A stretch of DNA of 64,000 nucleotides from Gammaproteobacteria bacterium (GTDB lineage: Bacteria > Pseudomonadota > Gammaproteobacteria > SZUA-229). The notes under the pieces are model-generated. The model made no database searches. It was not told where the DNA came from and worked only from the letters and a program-made list of their open reading frames with translations. The stretch covers positions 1 through 64,000 of the forward strand of contig JAOUKV010000016.1 of NCBI GenBank assembly GCA_029882355.1. Direction: 5' to 3'. This document shows positions 9,125 through 34,990 of the stretch, piece after piece; positions within the stretch are counted from its first letter, which is position 1, and every line of letters starts with the position of its first letter. A program made the position numbers and the translations under genes.

Positions 9125-9916
9125 ATGAATGTGGCTATTTTGTTTGATCTTGACGGTGTATTTTATCAGGCTGGCAAAGCTATCCCGGGTGCAGCTGATG
9201 TCGCCCGTTGGGCCAGGGATAATGCTATCCCGCATTTATTTTTGACCAATACTTCTTCAAGACCGCGCTCGGCACTGGTTGCAAAGTTGGCCGGTTTTGG
9301 TATTGAAACGGATGAGCTCCACATTCTTACACCTCCGGTAGCCGCAGTGCGCTGGCTGCAGCAGAACCATGCGGATGAAAAGATTGCGCTGTTTGTTCCA
9401 GAAGAAACCAGGGCGGAGTTTTCCGGCTTAGAAACCGCACAGCAGGGCGAAGACCTTGCGGCGGTTATTGTCGGTGACCTTGGCCGTGACTGGGACTTTG
9501 CTACATTGAATCATGCCTTTCAATTATTGATGTCTGAGCCTAAACCAAAGCTCATTGCTTTGGGAATGACGCGTTACTGGCAGGCGGATGATGGCCTGCG
9601 TCTGGATGTTGCTCCATTTGTGATGGCCTTGTCTCATGCCGCAGATAGAGAGCCATTGGTGATGGGTAAGCCAGCGGGGTCTTTTTACCGGGCCGCGGTG
9701 GAGATTCTGGCCGTGGAGCCGGACCGGGTTGTGATGGTTGGTGATGATATTCGCGGTGATATTGATGGTGCGCAGCGAGCGGGGCTTAAGGCAGTGCTGG
9801 TACGCACCGGGAAATTTCGTGAAAGCGATCTTGAGATTGGCATTCAACCGAATGCCGTGCTGGATTTGGTTGCGGATTTTCCGGCATGGTATGAGATCAA
9901 TTTCGGCATGTGCTGA
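9125..9916 (+). CDS. HAD-superfamily IIA phosphatase (LHPP-like)
   Basis: 263 residues with all four HAD motifs: FDLDG (nucleophile Asp8, Asp10), LTNTSS (motif II), the Lys of MGKP (motif III), and GDDIRGDIDGA (motif IV). The cap between motifs II and III fits subclass IIA, the same group as mammalian phospholysine/phosphohistidine phosphatase LHPP and NagD. The substrate is not readable from sequence. GTG at 9131 is a strong alternative start, because GGGGA at 9121-9125 is better spaced for it. The gene is followed by the U32 gene 108 bases downstream, which appears to have its own promoter. Confidence 0.85.
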   Translation: MNVAILFDLDGVFYQAGKAIPGAADVARWARDNAIPHLFLTNTSSRPRSALVAKLAGFGIETDELHILTPPVAAVRWLQQNHADEKIALFVPEETRAEFSGLETAQQGEDLAAVIVGDLGRDWDFATLNHAFQLLMSEPKPKLIALGMTRYWQADDGLRLDVAPFVMALSHAADREPLVMGKPAGSFYRAAVEILAVEPDRVVMVGDDIRGDIDGAQRAGLKAVLVRTGKFRESDLEIGIQPNAVLDLVADFPAWYEINFGMC

Positions 9917-10011
9917 TGATCGATTATAAAAATTCACTTTGGTCTCGTTCCCACGCAGGAGCATGCGAACCAGAAAATTAGATTTTAATCCCTCCACACC
10001 CCCATCACCGC

Positions 10012-24581: not shown

Positions 24582-24666
24582 AATCTAAATTGTAATTTTT
24601 GATCTGGAAGACTTTTATCACGTATCTATTCAGGTACACTCAAAGCATTGAGAGGGAGGAATGCTT

Positions 24667-27108
24667 ATGCCGTTATCTGAAACCGTTCTCATTATTATGG
24701 CCTTACTGGCAACCGGTATTGTTGCTTCGGGTGTGTTTCGAAAACTACCCATTCCCTACACCGTTATTCTCATCGTCATCGGTATTGCGCTAGCGCGTTT
24801 GTCCGAAGTCTGGCACCCGCTGGAACCGTTACAACATTTTCATCTAACACCTGATCTGGTGTTGTTTATTTTTCTACCTGCGCTGATTTTTGAATCAGGT
24901 CTTAATTTAAATTCGCGACAATTAATTAAAGATATGGCACCGGTGCTGACGCTGGCAGTACCGGCTTTGTTGATTTCAACCGGACTGGTCGGTGTGGGTT
25001 TGTGGTTGTTCCTGCCGTCGATTGATTTAATGGTGGCTTTGTTGTTCGGCGCCCTGATTTCAGCCACCGACCCGGTGGCAGTGATTTCCCTGTTTAAAGA
25101 GCTGGGTACCCCCGAGCGTTTGACCGTGATGGTCGAAGGCGAGTCTTTATTGAATGATGCTACCGCGATTGTGGTGGTGACTATTTTGCTGGGACTGTAT
25201 GCCGCATCACCCGACAGTGGTTGGGAAGTTGCAGGTACCGCGGTGAGTCAGTTTCTGTTTGTGTTTTTTGGCGGTGCTTTAGTGGGCGCTGTATTTGGTC
25301 TGGTCATCAGCTGGATGATGACACGTTTTGCTCATGAATCCAGCTCGGTTCTTATTCTGTCGCTGGTACTGGCCTATGTTTCGTTTGTGGTGGCTGAACA
25401 CGAGTTACATGTGTCCGGAGTGATGGCAGTAGTGGCCTGCGCGATTGTATTTGGAATTTTTGGTATGCCCAGGCTGTCACGAGAATCAGTCGAGCTGATG
25501 CATGAAACCTGGGAATTTATTGCACATATCTGCAACACACTGCTTTTTTTGTTTGTCGGTATGCTGGTCGATTTTGGCAGTTTAGTTGGTGATATTTGGT
25601 ACATCCTGTTAGCCGTTATTCTGGTGCAGGCAAGCCGGGCAGCGCTGGTTTATAGCTCAGTACCGTTGGTAGAAAAAGTTTTCAAGTTGCCCCATGTCAC
25701 ACTCGGCGAACGGCACATTATGTTCTGGGGTGGTCTCAAGGGCGGTCTGGCGATTGCTATTGTATTGTCACTGCCAGTCGACTTGCCGGGGCGTGAGCTG
25801 TTGATTCATCTAACGTTGGGCGTGGTCTTGTTTACCATGCTGGTGAATGCCCCTACCATTCGGCCACTGATTAGAAAGCTGGGTATCGATAAGTTGAGTG
25901 CTGATGAACTGGCTGAGCTTAAGCGCAGCATTATTGGTGCCAGAGGTGAAGTGGACAGTATTCTTGACCGCTTTAGAAAATCCGGTTTGTTGAGCAAGGC
26001 CGGGCATCATATGGTGAAGGATGAGACTAACGGCATCCTAAACCAATGGTTGCCGGAGGTAATCGGTGATGATGAGTACCGGCACAACCGTTTGAACGCA
26101 CTCAATGCCGAGGCGCAGGAGATGGACGATTTATTCAAAGCAGGGGTATTGAATCAATATTCCTATCTTGATTTGCGCAACGAGATTATGCGCAAGCGTG
26201 ATCATATTGTGACCGAGCATCGTGTCAGTGAGAGAAGAGCATCGGTTCGGCAGAATAATATTTTTGTTCGCTTTGAGGATGCGCTGGTAAAATGGTTACG
26301 TGAAAAAGACTGGGCCGTGTGCTTTCTTTCGCATTACCAGAATCGTCGTTTATCAAGTCATTTAATGCGAGATATCTCCCGCATACTGATGGCCGAAGCA
26401 GCTTTAAAAAACGTACATGCTGACCCCAGCATTAGTGCTGAACATCGGCAAAAGATTGAATCAAATTACTCGCAGCTACTTGATTATTTTCGTGAGCATA
26501 TTTCAGATACGCGTAATTCATTCCCCGAGTTTTTTGAGCGCTTTGAAACTAGCTTGTGCGCTAAATCGGCATTGGTCGCAGCATTACACGATATTGAAGA
26601 GGCGTACCATCGCGGCAGTCTCACTACCAAGGTTTATGTTTATCTCGAAGAACGCATTCATTATGCCATTGATGAAATCAGACCGATTACTGAACCGGTG
26701 CAGGAGTTACCAGCGAGAGATCTGATTACATTGATTCCTTTGTTTTCAGGCTTGCCTGAAGTTGCACTGGATAAAATTGCACAGCGGGCAACGACGGTAA
26801 ATTATCTCGAAGGTGACACTATCATAGGTACAGGCGATCATGGCGATGCCCTGTACGTGATTGCGCGTGGCAGACTTGAAGCCTTGTTGAAGCACGGGGA
26901 TGAGGAAACCAGGCTGGGCGAACTGGGCGCAGGTGATTTTTTTGGTGAAATGGCATTGTTGGGTGATAGTGTCCGCAAGGCGGATGTTCGCGCCATCAGC
27001 TCGTGTTCGTTGTTACGCATCAACAGTAAGGATGTGATGGAAGTCGCACATCAGCACCCTGAAATTTCTGGGCGGCTGGAAAAGGCTAAAGCGGAACGCT
27101 CTATCTGA
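24667..27108 (+). CDS. NhaP-type Na+(K+)/H+ antiporter with cyclic-nucleotide-binding domain
   Basis: 813 residues. The start at 24667 is preferred over 24661 because GGGAGGA is then about eight bases upstream. Residues 1-400 form the CPA1 antiporter core with about 12 helices and the conserved SATDPVAVISLF and EGESLLNDATAIV motifs, including the ion-binding Asn-Asp. A helical cytoplasmic region (about 410-690) follows. The end is a cNMP-binding domain with GDFFGEMALLGDSVRKADVRA. Known: related antiporters exchange Na+ or K+ for H+. The attached domain suggests gating by cAMP or cGMP, though binding is not proven by sequence. Confidence 0.9.
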   Translation: MPLSETVLIIMALLATGIVASGVFRKLPIPYTVILIVIGIALARLSEVWHPLEPLQHFHLTPDLVLFIFLPALIFESGLNLNSRQLIKDMAPVLTLAVPALLISTGLVGVGLWLFLPSIDLMVALLFGALISATDPVAVISLFKELGTPERLTVMVEGESLLNDATAIVVVTILLGLYAASPDSGWEVAGTAVSQFLFVFFGGALVGAVFGLVISWMMTRFAHESSSVLILSLVLAYVSFVVAEHELHVSGVMAVVACAIVFGIFGMPRLSRESVELMHETWEFIAHICNTLLFLFVGMLVDFGSLVGDIWYILLAVILVQASRAALVYSSVPLVEKVFKLPHVTLGERHIMFWGGLKGGLAIAIVLSLPVDLPGRELLIHLTLGVVLFTMLVNAPTIRPLIRKLGIDKLSADELAELKRSIIGARGEVDSILDRFRKSGLLSKAGHHMVKDETNGILNQWLPEVIGDDEYRHNRLNALNAEAQEMDDLFKAGVLNQYSYLDLRNEIMRKRDHIVTEHRVSERRASVRQNNIFVRFEDALVKWLREKDWAVCFLSHYQNRRLSSHLMRDISRILMAEAALKNVHADPSISAEHRQKIESNYSQLLDYFREHISDTRNSFPEFFERFETSLCAKSALVAALHDIEEAYHRGSLTTKVYVYLEERIHYAIDEIRPITEPVQELPARDLITLIPLFSGLPEVALDKIAQRATTVNYLEGDTIIGTGDHGDALYVIARGRLEALLKHGDEETRLGELGAGDFFGEMALLGDSVRKADVRAISSCSLLRINSKDVMEVAHQHPEISGRLEKAKAERSI

Positions 27109-27161
27109 GAAAGATAACTCAAAATGATTTAAATATGTGAAGAAGTTGTTTTATGTTAAAG

Positions 27162-27190
27162 ATTAATGTATATATTAACAATTAATGTAT
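27162..27190 (+). promoter_or_regulatory. AT-rich operator-like element, copy 1
   Basis: 29 bases differing at only three positions from 32912-32940. Both lie upstream of an MmpA-like HTH gene. The core here is TTAATGTATATATTAA, one change from a perfect palindrome. A likely operator for autoregulation. Confidence 0.5.
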
Positions 27191-27215
27191 AGGTTAATAT
27201 TCAGGGGGGGTTTTT

Positions 27216-27395
27216 ATGATGTGCCAGCATTTTTTATCCAGACTGGAATATTGGGTTCGTGCTAACCAGGTTGCGTGGGCAGAGATCGTTATGCAGAAAT
27301 CGTGGATACGGAGTTTACGACTGGCGAAAAACCTAAAGGGTGTCGATATGGCGAAGCGCATGGGTGTGAGTCCGGCACGAATCTCGCTTATATAA
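27216..27395 (+). pseudogene. truncated MmpA-like helix-turn-helix protein
   Basis: 59 codons from the ATG at 27216 to TAA at 27393. The product matches residues 2-59 of the intact protein at 32960 with 42 of 58 identities, including the exact block MGVSPARIS in the recognition region, and stops right after it. The downstream half, with the conserved ALDCEFVYAVIP ending, is missing. It also keeps the operator-like element of the intact copy. It is the left marker of a region holding the cd1-type protein and its neighbours. From there to 27550 I see nothing else. Confidence 0.75.
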
Positions 27396-27550
27396 AGACC
27401 ATTAAGGCTTAAACTTAAGAGGTATCTTTATGGATCAAGGGCTTAGGGACTCTGCTCCCTTAATTCTCTTGAAAGCTTTTATAGGAAAGATCCGTTTCTG
27501 ACAAGGTTTGTATATTTGTAGGCAGGTAATTAGTTAATACATGGTTGATA

Positions 27551-29164
27551 TCAATTCAATAGTAATTCTTTGTCTGTGTTCAAAACAATTTCTCGTCTTA
27601 CTTCCATCATATATTCCCTGTAGACACTAAGAATGTCATTCATATCATCGGTAACAGGTCTTATATCCAATAAATCTTTTTTATAAATATTAGAGATGCT
27701 AGATACCATTTTTTGGAAAATATTTTTCATTGGTTCTGGTACATCTGTGGAGTCAACATCAAAATTATCAGGTAAGTTATGCAATGAAGCTAGAAGAATC
27801 ATATTGTCCTCAAGTATTTCTGGATCAGGTATATTTCTTAACATAACAAGATCTGTAAATACTGATAACAAAGTGGATTGCAATAACTTCAGTGGTCTGG
27901 AGTTCAGGGTACTTTGCACAGTATTCATTGCCAATATTCCGTTAGGATTGATGCATTGGCTTAAGCTATAAAAAAATTCACGCGTCATAAGATAATCAGG
28001 TGGTGCAATGGAGTGATATAAATCAACATAAACAATGTCGTATGATTTGGGGCAATTATTCGCAAAAGTGCGAGCATCCTCGATATAGGTTGTTATGCCT
28101 TCTGGGTTAAAATTAAAATATTTCTCAGCTATAAAAAAAGATTTTTTGTTCACATCAACAGCATCAACCTGAAAACCTCTTTCTTTTAACATTACCGGAA
28201 CCAGGCCACCAGCAACGCCAAGTACAAGTGCTGATTCAGCTTTTGGATGTACTGATATCGCGCTGTTCAATAATGTATAGTTGACCCCAAGCAGTGACTC
28301 TCCTGTTGTGATATCAATGACACTTTGTGGAATTCCTTCCTGCATATACACCCGCTCTTTAGACCCTCGATCAGTCTTATAATCTACAACTTTAATCGTA
28401 TTAAAAAACGAGGGAAATTCTTCAACAACATGCCAGTTAGCACCTTCTTGATTATTGCGTTGAAAAAACAGGCTGCCAGTACAAAGCGTGATACCAATAA
28501 GTGAAGCAATAATGACATTATATTTGTAGCGCTTATTATCGGGTGGTGAAATCAGTGTTGTTAATAATGCCAGTAAGCCCAGTAACACGGCCAGAATCAG
28601 GATTCCTTTCGAGTTTGGGATATTGGGAATGAGAATAAAGGCAGTGCCGATAACACCTGCAACTGAGCCTATGGTGCTTATACCAAATACCCTGCCAGCA
28701 CCACCATCGCCCTGTGAATGCGCCTGTGACTGACCAAGCGCAATCAATAATGGATTCATGGAAGATAACAATATTAACGGCACACCAAGCAAAACCATGC
28801 AGCCAATAAAGCTACCGACAATAAGACCTATAGAGGCAGCAAGATAATGAAAAAGATCTGGATAGATAATACGTGAAAGAAAAATAGCAATCGGCGTTAT
28901 TGCAGGGAATAGTAGAAAATAATACACCACTGATTCTGTTTTGATACGGCGTGCCATAATGCCACCGAAATAATAACCTAATGAAAGTCCAATGAGTGTA
29001 ATCGACAGAATACCTGCCCAGATATATAAGCTCACACCAAAATAGGGTGACATGATTCGTGAAGCCAGTACTTCAAGGCCAAGAATAATTCCACCTGAGC
29101 AGAAAATTAACAATAGATACGAAAGATATGAATGGTTCATCTTTGAATACTTTTTTCCTGCCAA
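27551..29164 (-). CDS. membrane-fused spermidine-synthase-like protein
   Basis: 537 residues. Residues 1-225 contain about seven hydrophobic helices (from YLSYLLLIFCSGGIILGLEVLASRI onward). Residues about 240-460 form a methyltransferase-like domain of the spermidine synthase fold: ALVLGVAGGLVPVMLKERG binds the nucleoside ligand, followed by DAVDVNKKS, YIEDARTF and YDIVYVDLYHS. Known: such fusions are widespread, and their polyamine-synthase activity is usually unproven. It lies downstream of the cd1-type gene on the same strand but after a strong terminator, so it probably has its own promoter. The substrate is unknown; a role with the cytochrome is only suggested by position. Confidence 0.82.
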   Translation of the reverse strand: MAGKKYSKMNHSYLSYLLLIFCSGGIILGLEVLASRIMSPYFGVSLYIWAGILSITLIGLSLGYYFGGIMARRIKTESVVYYFLLFPAITPIAIFLSRIIYPDLFHYLAASIGLIVGSFIGCMVLLGVPLILLSSMNPLLIALGQSQAHSQGDGGAGRVFGISTIGSVAGVIGTAFILIPNIPNSKGILILAVLLGLLALLTTLISPPDNKRYKYNVIIASLIGITLCTGSLFFQRNNQEGANWHVVEEFPSFFNTIKVVDYKTDRGSKERVYMQEGIPQSVIDITTGESLLGVNYTLLNSAISVHPKAESALVLGVAGGLVPVMLKERGFQVDAVDVNKKSFFIAEKYFNFNPEGITTYIEDARTFANNCPKSYDIVYVDLYHSIAPPDYLMTREFFYSLSQCINPNGILAMNTVQSTLNSRPLKLLQSTLLSVFTDLVMLRNIPDPEILEDNMILLASLHNLPDNFDVDSTDVPEPMKNIFQKMVSSISNIYKKDLLDIRPVTDDMNDILSVYREYMMEVRREIVLNTDKELLLN

Positions 29165-29232
29165 AGTTTCCTCCTGTTATCGTTTTGAATATATCAATAA
29201 TACTCAAATCGGCTATAACACTATTTTGATAC

Positions 29233-29272
29233 AAAAAAAAACGGGCACACCCACAAGAGGTGTGCCCGGTTC
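29233..29272 (-). terminator. rho-independent terminator of the cd1-type gene
   Basis: Perfect 10-bp stem CGGGCACACC / GGTGTGCCCG (29242-29251, 29259-29268) with a seven-base loop, followed on the minus strand by a run of nine T. It separates the cd1-type gene from the spermidine-synthase-like gene. Confidence 0.92.
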
Positions 29273-29293
29273 AGATCGCCTTATTTCTAAGGT

Positions 29294-31516
29294 TTAGTAA
29301 ACATCATGTGCTGTGTTATACACATTGAATTTACCGGTTGTTGATGGCAATGCGATTGAATTAATTACATTCAACGTAGTGCTATCAAGGATGATCTGTC
29401 CACCATCAGCAGACCAGTCAGAGATCCAGACCTCACTACCATCCTTATTGAACTCCATGTGTACTGCCTTACCAGCAGTAGCTACATCGAAGCAACGGTC
29501 AACTGCACCTGTTGATTTAGCAATCGCACAGATCTGTTTATCGTTAGTTGAGCTCAATGTCATATCAACCAGAACCCAGGGTGAGTTCGGATGTGTCTTG
29601 ACGAATAGTGAACCCGCAGCTGGTAGGTCAATTTGACGAACTACCTTCCAGGCATTTTCTGGTTTGTTCACCGGATCAGCACCATATACCGAGATGAACG
29701 AACTACCGATATGTGGTGTGGCATTTACCCAGCCATAAACAGGGTCTAACCAGTTAGCACCACGACCAGGATGAGGCACACTACCAACATCAATGATTTG
29801 TTCCAGTGTCTGGTTAAGTACATCCACAATCACTATCTTATTACTGGCATTAGCCGCAGTCATGAAATAGCGTTTGGTATGATCCCAGCCACCATCATGC
29901 AGGAACTTGGCGGTCGCAATATTGGCCACCAGAGGTGCGCCTTCTTGCGAATAGTCAACGATACCTACATAGCCAGACTCTTTCTGGTTAACCACCCATA
30001 CTGGTGCAAATTCCGAAGCAACAATCGCCGCAACACGTACTTCAGGTAGTGTTTCGCCTGTAATACTGGTCATAGGAAGTTTCACAAGGTTTTGTGGTTC
30101 AAGTGTTAAACCATCATAAGTCACGTACTGTGCTGGCCAGTAACAACCCTCAATGAGGTATTTGTCTTCGAAGCCTTCGAACTTACTGCCATCAACACTT
30201 CTGGCATCATGGCAACCTTTCACTTTCGCAACGACGTTAGGTACGCTTGCCCAGAGGTCAATTAGATTGACCCAGCCATCACGACCAATCGCATAGAAAT
30301 AGCGACCTGATGCTGATGAACGCAGAATATGTACAGCGAAGCCAACATCAACACGAGAGACCTCTTCATGAGTGTCGCCGTCAAAGATAGCAATCTTGCC
30401 AGCATCTCTAAGCACGACACCAAAGAAGTTTTCCCAGTCGTGAGAATGTTGTGGAGTTGTTGGACGACTGGCCACTGGCACCATCAATTCCCAACTTGCT
30501 ACTATTTCTGGCATTTCCAGAGCAGGTGCTTCTGGTGGTGCTAACTGTAGATAAGCCGCCAGTTTGGTAATTTCATCCTCAGTCAGGATACCAGCAGTAC
30601 CAAAGTTTGGCATACCACCGGGTGTACCATGACGCATCATTGCAGCAAGACCATCAGTACCAATTTCCACTGATCTGGCTTCATCAATCACAGGGCCAGT
30701 TGCACCAGTACGATAGAGACCGTGACAACCTGCGCAGCGGTCAAAGTACACATTTTTGGTTTCATTAAATTCTGTTTCAGAAAGCAAAACAGGCGTTGCT
30801 GGAACCATTGAGTCTATCTGCTGACCAATATATGTAGCAATATCAAGTGCATCACCATCAGTCAAATCAAGGTCAGCCATTATGAAAGGATATTGAGCCA
30901 GTTCAGCCTCCGTGTAGGCATGAGTTGCCATTGCTTCAGGCTCCACAATAAATGCCTCAAGATATTCACAGGTAGATGAACTACTACCACCAGGACCAGG
31001 ACCAGGAGCACCATTAGTACCGGTGGCACAATTTTCAGCAGCTCCCATTAAATCAGGTCCAACTCTGGCGCTTCCACCCAGGGAATGACAACCTGTACAG
31101 CTCTCTCTAAACAATGCTTCACCAGCAGCCGCGACACCATCACGAGTTAATCGTTCAGGATCTCCGGCAGACGGCAACCAAGCCAGATGGCCTGCAATGT
31201 CGGCAATCTCTTCAGTAGTCAAAGACGACAGGAAGTCCATTGACGGTTCATTAGCAATCGCACCTTCGATAGTCCAGGCATCCATACCCCGGATACTTCT
31301 ACGTACAAATCGACCGCCCGCATCATCACCATGACACGCAAAGCAAGTCTCTTGGTATAGAGCTTCACCAGCAGGATTTGGCTGAGGAGTGCTACCATCA
31401 CCCCAACCACCGCCCCAGCCACCACGGGCAAAGGCGCTATCAGTCATAAATGGTAAAATCAGGAAGGCGGTAAATAGATATACCGGTATTTTATCTCTTA
31501 ATGTTTTTTTTCTCAT
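29294..31516 (-). CDS. nirS: cytochrome cd1-type protein (NirS-like) with three haem c domains
   Basis: 740 residues from the ATG at 31516 (AGAGG upstream). A signal peptide ends near SAFA and a glycine-rich stretch follows. Three c-type haem motifs occur: CFACH (58-62), CTGCH (140-144) and CAGCH (261-265). Residues about 340-740 form a cytochrome d1 propeller. The proximal d1 ligand is His396 in FAVHILRSSASGRY, and both distal active-site His are kept: His582 in PHPGRGAN and His602 in PHIG. The end KFNVYNTAHDVY is as in NirS. Canonical NirS has one haem c domain and about 560 residues. I infer a periplasmic nitrite-to-NO reductase with two added electron-transfer domains. No haem d1 synthesis genes are in the window. 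Confidence 0.85.
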   Translation of the reverse strand: MRKKTLRDKIPVYLFTAFLILPFMTDSAFARGGWGGGWGDGSTPQPNPAGEALYQETCFACHGDDAGGRFVRRSIRGMDAWTIEGAIANEPSMDFLSSLTTEEIADIAGHLAWLPSAGDPERLTRDGVAAAGEALFRESCTGCHSLGGSARVGPDLMGAAENCATGTNGAPGPGPGGSSSSTCEYLEAFIVEPEAMATHAYTEAELAQYPFIMADLDLTDGDALDIATYIGQQIDSMVPATPVLLSETEFNETKNVYFDRCAGCHGLYRTGATGPVIDEARSVEIGTDGLAAMMRHGTPGGMPNFGTAGILTEDEITKLAAYLQLAPPEAPALEMPEIVASWELMVPVASRPTTPQHSHDWENFFGVVLRDAGKIAIFDGDTHEEVSRVDVGFAVHILRSSASGRYFYAIGRDGWVNLIDLWASVPNVVAKVKGCHDARSVDGSKFEGFEDKYLIEGCYWPAQYVTYDGLTLEPQNLVKLPMTSITGETLPEVRVAAIVASEFAPVWVVNQKESGYVGIVDYSQEGAPLVANIATAKFLHDGGWDHTKRYFMTAANASNKIVIVDVLNQTLEQIIDVGSVPHPGRGANWLDPVYGWVNATPHIGSSFISVYGADPVNKPENAWKVVRQIDLPAAGSLFVKTHPNSPWVLVDMTLSSTNDKQICAIAKSTGAVDRCFDVATAGKAVHMEFNKDGSEVWISDWSADGGQIILDSTTLNVINSIALPSTTGKFNVYNTAHDVY

Positions 31517-31559
31517 ATTAACCTCTAGCAATTTGATTTAGTCGTTTTTTTAGAATTCA

Positions 31560-31596
31560 GGATGATGGTCTAACGCTATTAATTGCATCCTTAGAC
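31560..31596 (-). other. possible pseudoknot-forming leader of the cd1-type gene
   Basis: On the minus strand GTCTAA then GGATG are followed by TTAGAC then CATCC, giving two interlocked stems of six and five pairs, 44-80 bases before the ATG. The rest of the 31517-31886 gap shows no clear FNR box or other site. Confidence 0.25.
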
Positions 31597-31886
31597 TAAG
31601 CCACACCACAGAAATCAACGTCTTTATGATGACATTATGTTCAAACTATAAACATGCAGCATTTGAGTCATATTATTAGCCCATACTGAGGGCAGGTTGA
31701 GGGAGTACTAAAGAACAGGAACTTGCTTCGAGCAGGGAAAAAGTGCAACTATCGACGTATAACACCGTGCAAATAATAAATTAAAGAACAGATAATATTT
31801 TGTAATACAGGCTATTGAGGGGAACAACCGAGTTATTACGACAGAGTTTTTTCTTCAAAAATACGGATAGAAATACTAACTATTAT

Positions 31887-32513
31887 TTACATAATCCCTT
31901 GATGTATTGCATAAGTAACAGCCTCTGCTCGGCTTCGAACTTCAAGTTTTGCAAAAATGTTTTTTACGTGATTACGCACGGTTGCCGGACTAATATCCAG
32001 TTGATTAGCTATATCTTTAGTTACGACTCCACTCGGCAATATTCGTAATATTTCATATTCGCGTTTGCTTAGCTTATTTATCTTTTCATTACCCATTTCT
32101 TCCTTGCATGAGTTATTTGACAACCGCTTGATTAGTTGATGGCAATTCACCGCTCGCATACTATGAAAAACGCGGATATCATCGTTATCTTTTTGATCTG
32201 ATTCAGGGATATAATATGAACCAACATTGACTACAACTGGGTTGATTTTTCTAGATTGTAAAACCAGATCAAAATCATTATTAGGTGCCTGTGCATCAAA
32301 AAAATTGGCAATTGGGCAGTCAGCACCACAAACTTTATTACCATGTAAATCTTCACCACAAAGCAATTCGGCACAGGGTCGGCCCATAGCTTGCTGAGGG
32401 GAAAGCCCCAGAAGATCTTCACAGCCTTTATTCCAGAAACGAATGCATCTATTTTTATCAGTACCAAAAACGGCATCTGATGTGTGTTCAAAAAAGCTAT
32501 GTAATGCAATCAT
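31887..32513 (-). CDS. PAS-LuxR family transcriptional regulator with cysteine cluster
   Basis: 208 residues. Residues 1-110 form a PAS domain (FFEHTSDAVFGTDKNRCIRFWNKGCEDLLG) with a cluster Cys47, Cys52, Cys62 and Cys66 in a GRPCAELLCGEDLHGNKVC-x3-C segment, fit to bind a metal, haem or iron-sulfur group, or to switch by disulfides. Residues about 145-205 form a LuxR/NarL-type helix-turn-helix (LSKREYEILRILPSGVVTKDIANQL, VRNHVKNIFAKL). It has no receiver domain, so the PAS part must be the sensor. It sits upstream of the cd1-type gene on the same strand, 370 bases away, and is the obvious candidate regulator of it. Repeated CGTTAA-type motifs lie in its own promoter region. Confidence 0.85.
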   Translation of the reverse strand: MIALHSFFEHTSDAVFGTDKNRCIRFWNKGCEDLLGLSPQQAMGRPCAELLCGEDLHGNKVCGADCPIANFFDAQAPNNDFDLVLQSRKINPVVVNVGSYYIPESDQKDNDDIRVFHSMRAVNCHQLIKRLSNNSCKEEMGNEKINKLSKREYEILRILPSGVVTKDIANQLDISPATVRNHVKNIFAKLEVRSRAEAVTYAIHQGIM

Positions 32514-32539
32514 ACGATTGTCTCTTCTTTAATATTTGG

Positions 32540-32645
32540 TTACGTTTAGTTACGTTAACTAGATTTATTTAATTTTTCACATATTAGTAAGGTATCAATT
32601 AACCATATAAAAGACTAGATTGCTGTTCGTTAATTTTCGTTAATT
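32540..32645 (-). promoter_or_regulatory. paired 10-bp-phased direct repeats upstream of the PAS-LuxR gene
   Basis: TTACGTT occurs at 32540 and 32550, and TTCGTTAATT occurs twice in exact tandem at 32626-32635 and 32636-32645. All four share a CGTTWA core. Spacing of one helical turn suggests protein binding on one face. The rest of the 32514-32959 gap is AT-rich with no gene. Confidence 0.4.
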
Positions 32646-32911
32646 TTAAAATATCATTTTATATCAATCATTTATAGATACATATCACCTGCTATATTAG
32701 AAATGCATCCTATTAAATAGAGTATTAATCTGTTACCGCCTTTTTTATCTATTTTGGTGGTAGGTTACTCTATCTTTGCAGTTTCAGTGGGTTACTATTC
32801 TATTGTGTAAAATAATCATGCCAACATCTCGTATGGGATGCGCGTTTGCGCGCTCCCTATAATAGGAAAGAAGAGTATTTAAAAATGAAAACGTGTTGCT
32901 TTGTTTAAAAT

Positions 32912-32940
32912 ATTAATATATATATTAACTATTAATGAAT
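32912..32940 (+). promoter_or_regulatory. AT-rich operator-like element, copy 2
   Basis: Contains the perfect 16-bp palindrome TTAATATATATATTAA (32913-32928) followed by CTATTAATGAAT. It matches 27162-27190 at 26 of 29 positions and lies 20 bases before the GTG start of the HTH gene. Confidence 0.5.
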
Positions 32941-32959
32941 ATTTTAAATAGGTGGAGAA

Positions 32960-33304
32960 GTGTCAGATCAACGTTTCTTTTCAAGACTAGAATACTGGGT
33001 AAAAGCCAATCTTGTTGCATGGGCTGAAATCATTCAGCAGAAATCCTGGTTGCGGGCATCACGACTGGCGCACGGTCTGAAAGGTGTTGATATGGCTCGG
33101 CGTATGGGTGTGAGCCCGGCAAGAATTTCCATGATGGAGTCTGACGAGGCGCGCGGGGCGCTAACATTAAATATGATGAGAAAAGCGGCGCAGGCGCTGG
33201 ATTGCGAGTTTGTTTATGCGGTGATCCCTAAAAATGCTTTGAAAAATGATAAAAATGATCAGGCCAAGAAGCCAAGGATACGTGTTGATCAGGGTTATGA
33301 GTGA
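32960..33304 (+). CDS. MmpA-like helix-turn-helix protein
   Basis: 114 residues with a GTG start and GGTGGAG upstream. The HTH lies at about residues 42-65 (GVDMARRMGVSPARISMMESDE), followed by GALTLNMMRKAAQALDCEFVYAVIP. This ending is characteristic of the 'mobile mystery protein A' family and related XRE-like proteins. Known: MmpA genes usually pair with a Fic-domain MmpB gene on mobile islands; no such partner is in the window. A truncated relative with the same upstream element is at 27216. It probably represses its own promoter through the palindrome at 32913. Confidence 0.7.
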   Translation: MSDQRFFSRLEYWVKANLVAWAEIIQQKSWLRASRLAHGLKGVDMARRMGVSPARISMMESDEARGALTLNMMRKAAQALDCEFVYAVIPKNALKNDKNDQAKKPRIRVDQGYE

Positions 33305-33412: not shown

Positions 33413-34990
33413 ATGGTGTATCAATCTCTAAAAATACGTTTAAAGCAGCTTATAGATTCTGGTCAGGCGGCCTGTTTGTCAGAATCCCTGATTGGTCTCG
33501 AAAAAGAAAGCCTGCGTGTGGCTGAAGACGGTTCTATCTCACAAACTGCACACCCCTCTGCGCTGGGTTCTGCGCTGACTAATCCTGCCATCACCACAGA
33601 CTTTTCTGAAGCGCTGATCGAGCTGATTACTCCGCCCTGTAGTTCTGTGAAAGAGGTTCTTAGTTATCTGGATGATATTCAGAAGTTTGTTTATTCGAAA
33701 CTGGATGATGAAACTTTGTGGGCGACCAGCATGCCCTGTGTGGTGTGTGGTGGTAGTAGTATTCCTCTAGCGCAATATGGAAAATCTAACGTTGGCACAA
33801 TGAAGACGGTTTATCGTCGTGGCCTGGGTTATCGTTATGGACGCACTATGCAGGTGATTGCGGGTGTGCATTTCAATTATTCGGTTTCGGATTCTTTCTG
33901 GGATCTGTATCAGAAATTGCAGGCCAACACTGACCCCAGACAGGATTTTATTTCTGATCAATACATGGGGCTGGTACGTAATATGCTCCGTTATGGCTGG
34001 ATGATTCCCTATTTATTTGGCGCTTCACCGGCAGTGTGCAAATCTTTTCTGGATGGTAAGCCAACCATGCTTACTGATTTCAATGAACATACTTTTTATG
34101 AACCTTATGCGACTTCTTTGCGCATGGGTGATATTGGTTATACCAATACTCAGGAAGATATGGCAGGCATCAAGGCGGACTACAGTTCCATTGATGCTTA
34201 TGTGAAAAGTTTGCAGTGTGCCATCGAAAAACCTTTTGCTGCTTATGATGATATTGGCGTCAAAGTTGATGGTGAATATAGGCAGTTAAATGCCAATATA
34301 TTACAGATTGAAAATGAATATTACAGTACTGTTCGACCCAAACAGATCACACAGAAGGATGAAAAACCAACAACAGCATTGCATAAACGGGGTATTGCTT
34401 ATGTTGAAATTCGCTCGATAGATGTTAATGCTTTTGACCCATTAGGCGTCAATGAAGAGCAGCTTTATTTTCTGGAGATTTTTGTGCTATTTTGTTTGCT
34501 GCAGGAAAGTAAGACTTTAAATCAAATGGAAATGAATGAAGTCGATATGAATTTGATACAGGTAGCGCACACCGGTCGGCAACCTGGTTTAGAGTTAAAT
34601 CGACATGATCAATCTATTCCGTTAAAAGATTGGGCTTTAGAGCTATGCGAAGCCATGCGGGAGGTCGCAAAGTTATTGGATGAGGTAAATCACTGTGATT
34701 CATACTCAAAAAGTCTGAGATCTCAAATTGAATGTATTAATGAACCATCGAAAACACCTTCTGCCAGAATGCTGGAAGAAATGCGAGATCATGAAGAAGG
34801 CTTCTTTCATTTTGCGCAGCGAAAATCGCTACAATATCTGGATTATTTTAAGTCGCGAGAATTGTCACCAGAGCGCCAGCAGTTTTTTGAGTCAATGACT
34901 CAGGAATCATTAGCAAAGCAGTTGCAAATAGAAGCTTCTGATACATTGAGTTTTGATGAGTATTTACAACAATATTTTTCGAACAGTTAG
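33413..34990 (+). CDS. gshA: glutamate-cysteine ligase
   Basis: 525 residues, close to the 518 of E. coli GshA, and of the same proteobacterial type. Hallmarks: LIGLEKESLRV (glutamate/ATP site), HPSALGSALTNPAITTDFSEALIELITPP, SMPC, LAQYGKSN, YGRTMQVIAGVHFNYS, and later ILQIENEYYSTVRPK and AYVEIRSIDVN. It catalyses the ATP-dependent first step of glutathione synthesis. gshB is not in the window. The small membrane protein gene begins 30 bases downstream and is probably in the same transcript. Confidence 0.95.
   Translation: MVYQSLKIRLKQLIDSGQAACLSESLIGLEKESLRVAEDGSISQTAHPSALGSALTNPAITTDFSEALIELITPPCSSVKEVLSYLDDIQKFVYSKLDDETLWATSMPCVVCGGSSIPLAQYGKSNVGTMKTVYRRGLGYRYGRTMQVIAGVHFNYSVSDSFWDLYQKLQANTDPRQDFISDQYMGLVRNMLRYGWMIPYLFGASPAVCKSFLDGKPTMLTDFNEHTFYEPYATSLRMGDIGYTNTQEDMAGIKADYSSIDAYVKSLQCAIEKPFAAYDDIGVKVDGEYRQLNANILQIENEYYSTVRPKQITQKDEKPTTALHKRGIAYVEIRSIDVNAFDPLGVNEEQLYFLEIFVLFCLLQESKTLNQMEMNEVDMNLIQVAHTGRQPGLELNRHDQSIPLKDWALELCEAMREVAKLLDEVNHCDSYSKSLRSQIECINEPSKTPSARMLEEMRDHEEGFFHFAQRKSLQYLDYFKSRELSPERQQFFESMTQESLAKQLQIEASDTLSFDEYLQQYFSNS

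Follow-up and report, generated by a model that had tools for sequence, protein, structure and literature searches.

The locus raises the question of why two unequal copies of a small HTH gene, each preceded by nearly the same DNA element, bracket three genes on the opposite strand. In the window (the whole stretch of DNA that was analysed, 64,000 nucleotides), the layout described in the initial annotation was recovered. A truncated and an intact HTH copy are present on the plus strand and have 42 of 58 residues in common (72%; fragment 27222-27395 against residues 3-60 of the intact protein, E 2.6e-24). A 29-bp element stands upstream of each (27163-27191 and 32913-32941) with three differing positions, and PAS-LuxR, cd1-type and spermidine-synthase-like genes lie between them on the minus strand. 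The annotation had taken the HTH genes for MmpA-like regulators of a mobile element, with an accessory module inserted beside them or carried between them. The features are as follows.

24661-27108, plus strand: NhaP-type Na+/H+ antiporter with cNMP-binding domain, left flank (PF00999, PF00027; synteny)
27127-27215, plus strand: probable promoter/operator of the truncated HTH copy, containing palindromes 27163-27178 and 27182-27197 (71-bp match, family-wide palindromes)
27216-27395, plus strand: truncated HTH gene, 5' half, 58 codons; DNA homology stops at about 27389
27396-27550, no strand: left spacer, no relatives among the loci compared; weak terminator-like stem at 27445-27460
27551-29164, minus strand: fused membrane/spermidine-synthase-like protein (NF037959, PF01564; 81% to G020 locus L068)
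29294-31531, minus strand: cd1-type protein with three c-type heme motifs and a cytochrome d1 propeller (PF02239, PF13442, PF00034)
31887-32513, minus strand: PAS-LuxR regulator (PF00989, PF00196; 75% to G020 locus L068)
32514-32876, no strand: right spacer; homology to G020 stops at about 32647
32877-32959, plus strand: probable promoter/operator of the intact HTH gene, palindromes at 32913-32928 and 32932-32947
32960-33304, plus strand: intact gshA-linked HTH regulator, 114 aa, probably chimeric
33413-34990, plus strand: gshA, glutamate-cysteine ligase, right flank (TIGR01434, 572 bits)

Judged from the alignments, the likeness of the two copies is homology and not chance. At the DNA level, the match is 77% over 71 bp upstream (27127-27197 against 32877-32947) and 73% over 161 bp of coding sequence (27225-27385 against 32969-33129). 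On the left, homology begins 18 bp past the NhaP stop, and on the right at about 32877; it takes in promoter and operator together with the first 56-58 codons and ends within the recognition helix. A genome-wide search returned exactly two copies in the 2.88-Mb genome.

The assignment to MmpA failed. Against the MmpA profile (TIGR02612, curated cut-off 122.6 bits), the intact protein scored 88.7 bits and the fragment 27.5 bits, both below the cut-off. A search for the MmpB/Fic partner elsewhere, which had been proposed as a check, found no MmpB over the cut-off in the genome. The proteins do belong to the same HTH superfamily as MmpA, and residues 26-104 of the intact copy align with the profile at E 3e-25; unlike MmpA, however, the window protein scores below the cut-off, has 114 aa and stands beside gshA without an MmpB/Fic partner. 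Outside the genus, two MmpA-type relatives (L029 and L031) are followed directly by an overlapping gene of 195-199 aa that appears MmpB-like by eye.

A single HTH gene was present in all six congeners examined; gshA follows directly 3' in five of them, and G004, the sixth, breaks off at a contig end. Across the family, gshA adjoins the HTH gene in 21/26 loci, the contig ends in three, and in two the stretch examined contained no gshA. Because of this neighbour, kept across the genus and in most of the family, the gene is, by its position, an ordinary chromosomal gene, not a mobile-element regulator, and the idea of a module carried between copies of such a regulator is not supported either. 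Literature on the gshA-linked HTH gene or on MmpA yielded nothing useful, and no earlier description of this regulator was located.

The 29-bp upstream element falls in a tandem pair of 16-bp palindromes with the consensus TTAATRTATAYATTAA, whose spacing is 19 bp in most of the family and 17 bp in a single genus. One or both palindromes stand upstream of the gshA-linked HTH gene in 25 of the 26 family loci and both in 20; none was found upstream of three MmpA-type control genes, a further difference from that group. In simplest reading, the element is a probable dedicated autoregulatory operator of the HTH gene, to which the HTH protein would bind upstream of its own gene; a palindromic element in that position, conserved across species, is what an autoregulated HTH gene is recognised by. 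That the two elements are nearly identical would therefore reflect conservation of an operator and not recent copying. The gshA-linked HTH gene with its double palindrome was seen family-wide (window 32877-33304; loci L003-L028). By pattern search, the full 29-bp element occurs in the genome at just two sites, the two HTH copies. A regulon beyond the HTH gene was considered and rejected, the full element being confined to these two sites and lone palindromes elsewhere being about as many as with the reversed control.

The insertion itself was borne out. In the congener G005 (L063), NhaP, one HTH gene and gshA follow each other with the module absent, which is the empty site that the initial annotation had proposed to look for; the same order of these three genes is found in G001 and G006. 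The cd1 gene of the module was in none of the six congeners, where its best matches were other cd1-type genes (44-48%). It has relatives in other genera, at 87-88% in G020 and 77% in G012, and GshA identity is 62% in G020 and 60-62% across both. G020 holds all three module genes in the same order (PAS-LuxR 75%, cd1-type 87%, spermidine-synthase-like 81%); homology to it reaches as far as the stop of the spermidine-synthase-like gene at one end and is lost by about 32647 at the other. Elsewhere, the module occurred only in scattered, more distant genomes among those searched. These comparisons show that the module came from outside the genus, and they support horizontal acquisition well. Base composition, also proposed as a check, was not decisive: AT-richness is confined to the spacers and the end of PAS-LuxR. 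In G020, a remnant of a Y2 transposase (IS91-type; PF04986, E 8e-9) lies directly past the cd1 module (L068, about 9790-10000). The left spacer was tried as a transposon end or repeat and rejected, as it has no second copy in the genome and no special fold.

For the history of the locus, the substitutions in the two copies were compared. The copies differ by dN 0.19 and dS 1.45, with synonymous change near saturation, and synonymous changes make up about half of those on the fragment's own branch, where neutrality would predict 23% (p 0.027). Because of this, the copies would have diverged mostly as working genes, with truncation late, and a duplication made in place at the insertion is therefore unlikely. 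A recent tandem duplication with decay was rejected, the copies being as distant as between-species orthologues and their substitutions non-neutral. An old tandem duplication, one copy of which was later broken by the module, would suit both the full probable operators of the two copies and their divergence under constraint; two gshA-linked copies were, however, seen in none of the six congeners nor in other family members searched, and this history is improbable.

The intact gene carries a mosaic signal. Its upstream region and 5' end lean to G005, but the 3' half falls with G006, as does gshA (98/98). The best breakpoint is at 33003-33034 (permutation p 0.007), or at 33003-33050 in a stricter set (p 0.027), about 100 bp 5' of where the fragment is truncated; the 5' part holds 50 informative sites and several comparisons were made. 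Against G001 alone the signal was absent (p 0.93). Over the same stretch, the 5' end of the fragment is the more G006-like (15:12, against 6:21 in the intact copy), which fits a resident allele. Nearest relatives also differ among neighbouring genes (G005 for HDGYP, G001 for MetH); recombination may thus be frequent in this region and have nothing to do with the insertion.

Most likely, the fragment is what remains of the resident gene's displaced 5' end, and the intact gene is chimeric, its promoter and start having come with the module; the mosaic signal and the non-neutral substitutions of the fragment back this only moderately. In full, the preferred history, to which we give a probability of roughly 0.55, is that a foreign block entered at the resident HTH gene, left a 5' scar and brought a promoter and 5' end that recombined homologously. 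The ancestral order would have been NhaP, a small and probably self-regulating HTH gene, and gshA. A horizontally acquired block of the PAS-LuxR, tri-heme cd1-type and membrane spermidine-synthase-like genes would have entered at the HTH gene and joined it inside the recognition-helix codons, so that the promoter of the resident gene, with its first 58 codons, would remain as a scar beside NhaP. The block would have supplied a promoter and 5' end from a related lineage, and by homologous recombination of these into the HTH gene, gshA would have kept a complete HTH neighbour. The exact form of this recombination route is inferred.

Placement of the fragment in the tree was without support, and the fragment may instead be the foreign part. 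It would then have come with the module from a donor whose HTH gene was already broken, and the block would have joined upstream of an undisturbed resident gene. The fragment is indeed an outlier: its identity to all congeners is 62-72%, where the intact copy has 72-79%, and its end branch is 0.44. Its position 18 bp past the NhaP stop and its whole promoter nevertheless suit a resident, and, in line with gshA and NhaP, it leans more to G006 than the 5' end of the intact copy does. We hold a foreign fragment to be unlikely, though less so than an old tandem duplication.

SXT-type elements split prfC and re-supply its 5' end, and by analogy a site-specific integrative element might have done the same to the HTH gene. 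The layout fits, with a 5' end and promoter as the left scar and a chimeric complete gene on the right. Between the HTH copies, however, there are three genes only and no integrase or transposase, and in the alignment of the copies no identical core remains at the junction, the longest exact shared run near it being 11 bp. Such an element is the least probable of the histories considered.

The slot upstream of the HTH gene varies between species. It holds the cd1 module in the window and is empty in G005. In G006 it is occupied by a two-component system and two spondin-domain proteins, in G001 by a NorB-type nitric oxide reductase and in G002, as read from the sequence, by a peroxiredoxin-like gene beside a U32 peptidase. 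The slot might be a recurrent entry point for respiratory and stress cargo that re-supplies the promoter and 5' end of the regulator; if so, insertion would also rewire the neighbourhood of gshA. This generalisation is doubtful. Palindromic repeats of the cccgc..gcggga type flank the NorB-type insert of G001 (L064 6900-10900) and are also present in the NhaP-HTH gap of G005 (L063 8460-8760).

The cd1-type protein of the module was compared with NirS, the cytochrome cd1 nitrite reductase, for which the roles of His182, His327 and His369 are presumed here to be those of the Pseudomonas aeruginosa enzyme. Like NirS, it has heme c and a d1 propeller, and it is 49% identical to the genome's own NirS, a canonical protein that has His327 and is encoded on another contig (C41). 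Unlike NirS, it has three CxxCH motifs, two of them extra c-type heme motifs. The equivalent of the proximal His182 is kept, as is the distal His369 (His545), and Leu495 takes the position of His327; the pair of distal catalytic histidines by which NirS is recognised is therefore incomplete. In a quick tree, the protein and its relatives from Gammaproteobacteria, Actinomycetota and Acidobacteriota form one clade apart from NirS (SH-aLRT 100). The name nitrite reductase should not be used for it without a test. The relative in G020 (L068 4764-7928) has three cadherin-like repeats, about 320 aa by eye, between the signal peptide and the first heme domain; they are absent from the window protein.

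What had the appearance of a mobile-element signature thus becomes an ordinary horizontal acquisition at a conserved site. It singles out a gshA-linked regulator with a testable, genome-unique candidate operator, and the acquired cd1 gene belongs to a cross-phylum clade that lacks one catalytic histidine of NirS; a nirS-like clade of this kind could matter for the annotation of denitrification. Among the closest known counterparts are genomic islets that enter at a conserved gene and leave part of that target duplicated. Unlike these, the locus has no integrase and its repeats are diverged, not identical; like them, it has an empty site in a relative, foreign cargo and a partial second copy of the target at one edge.
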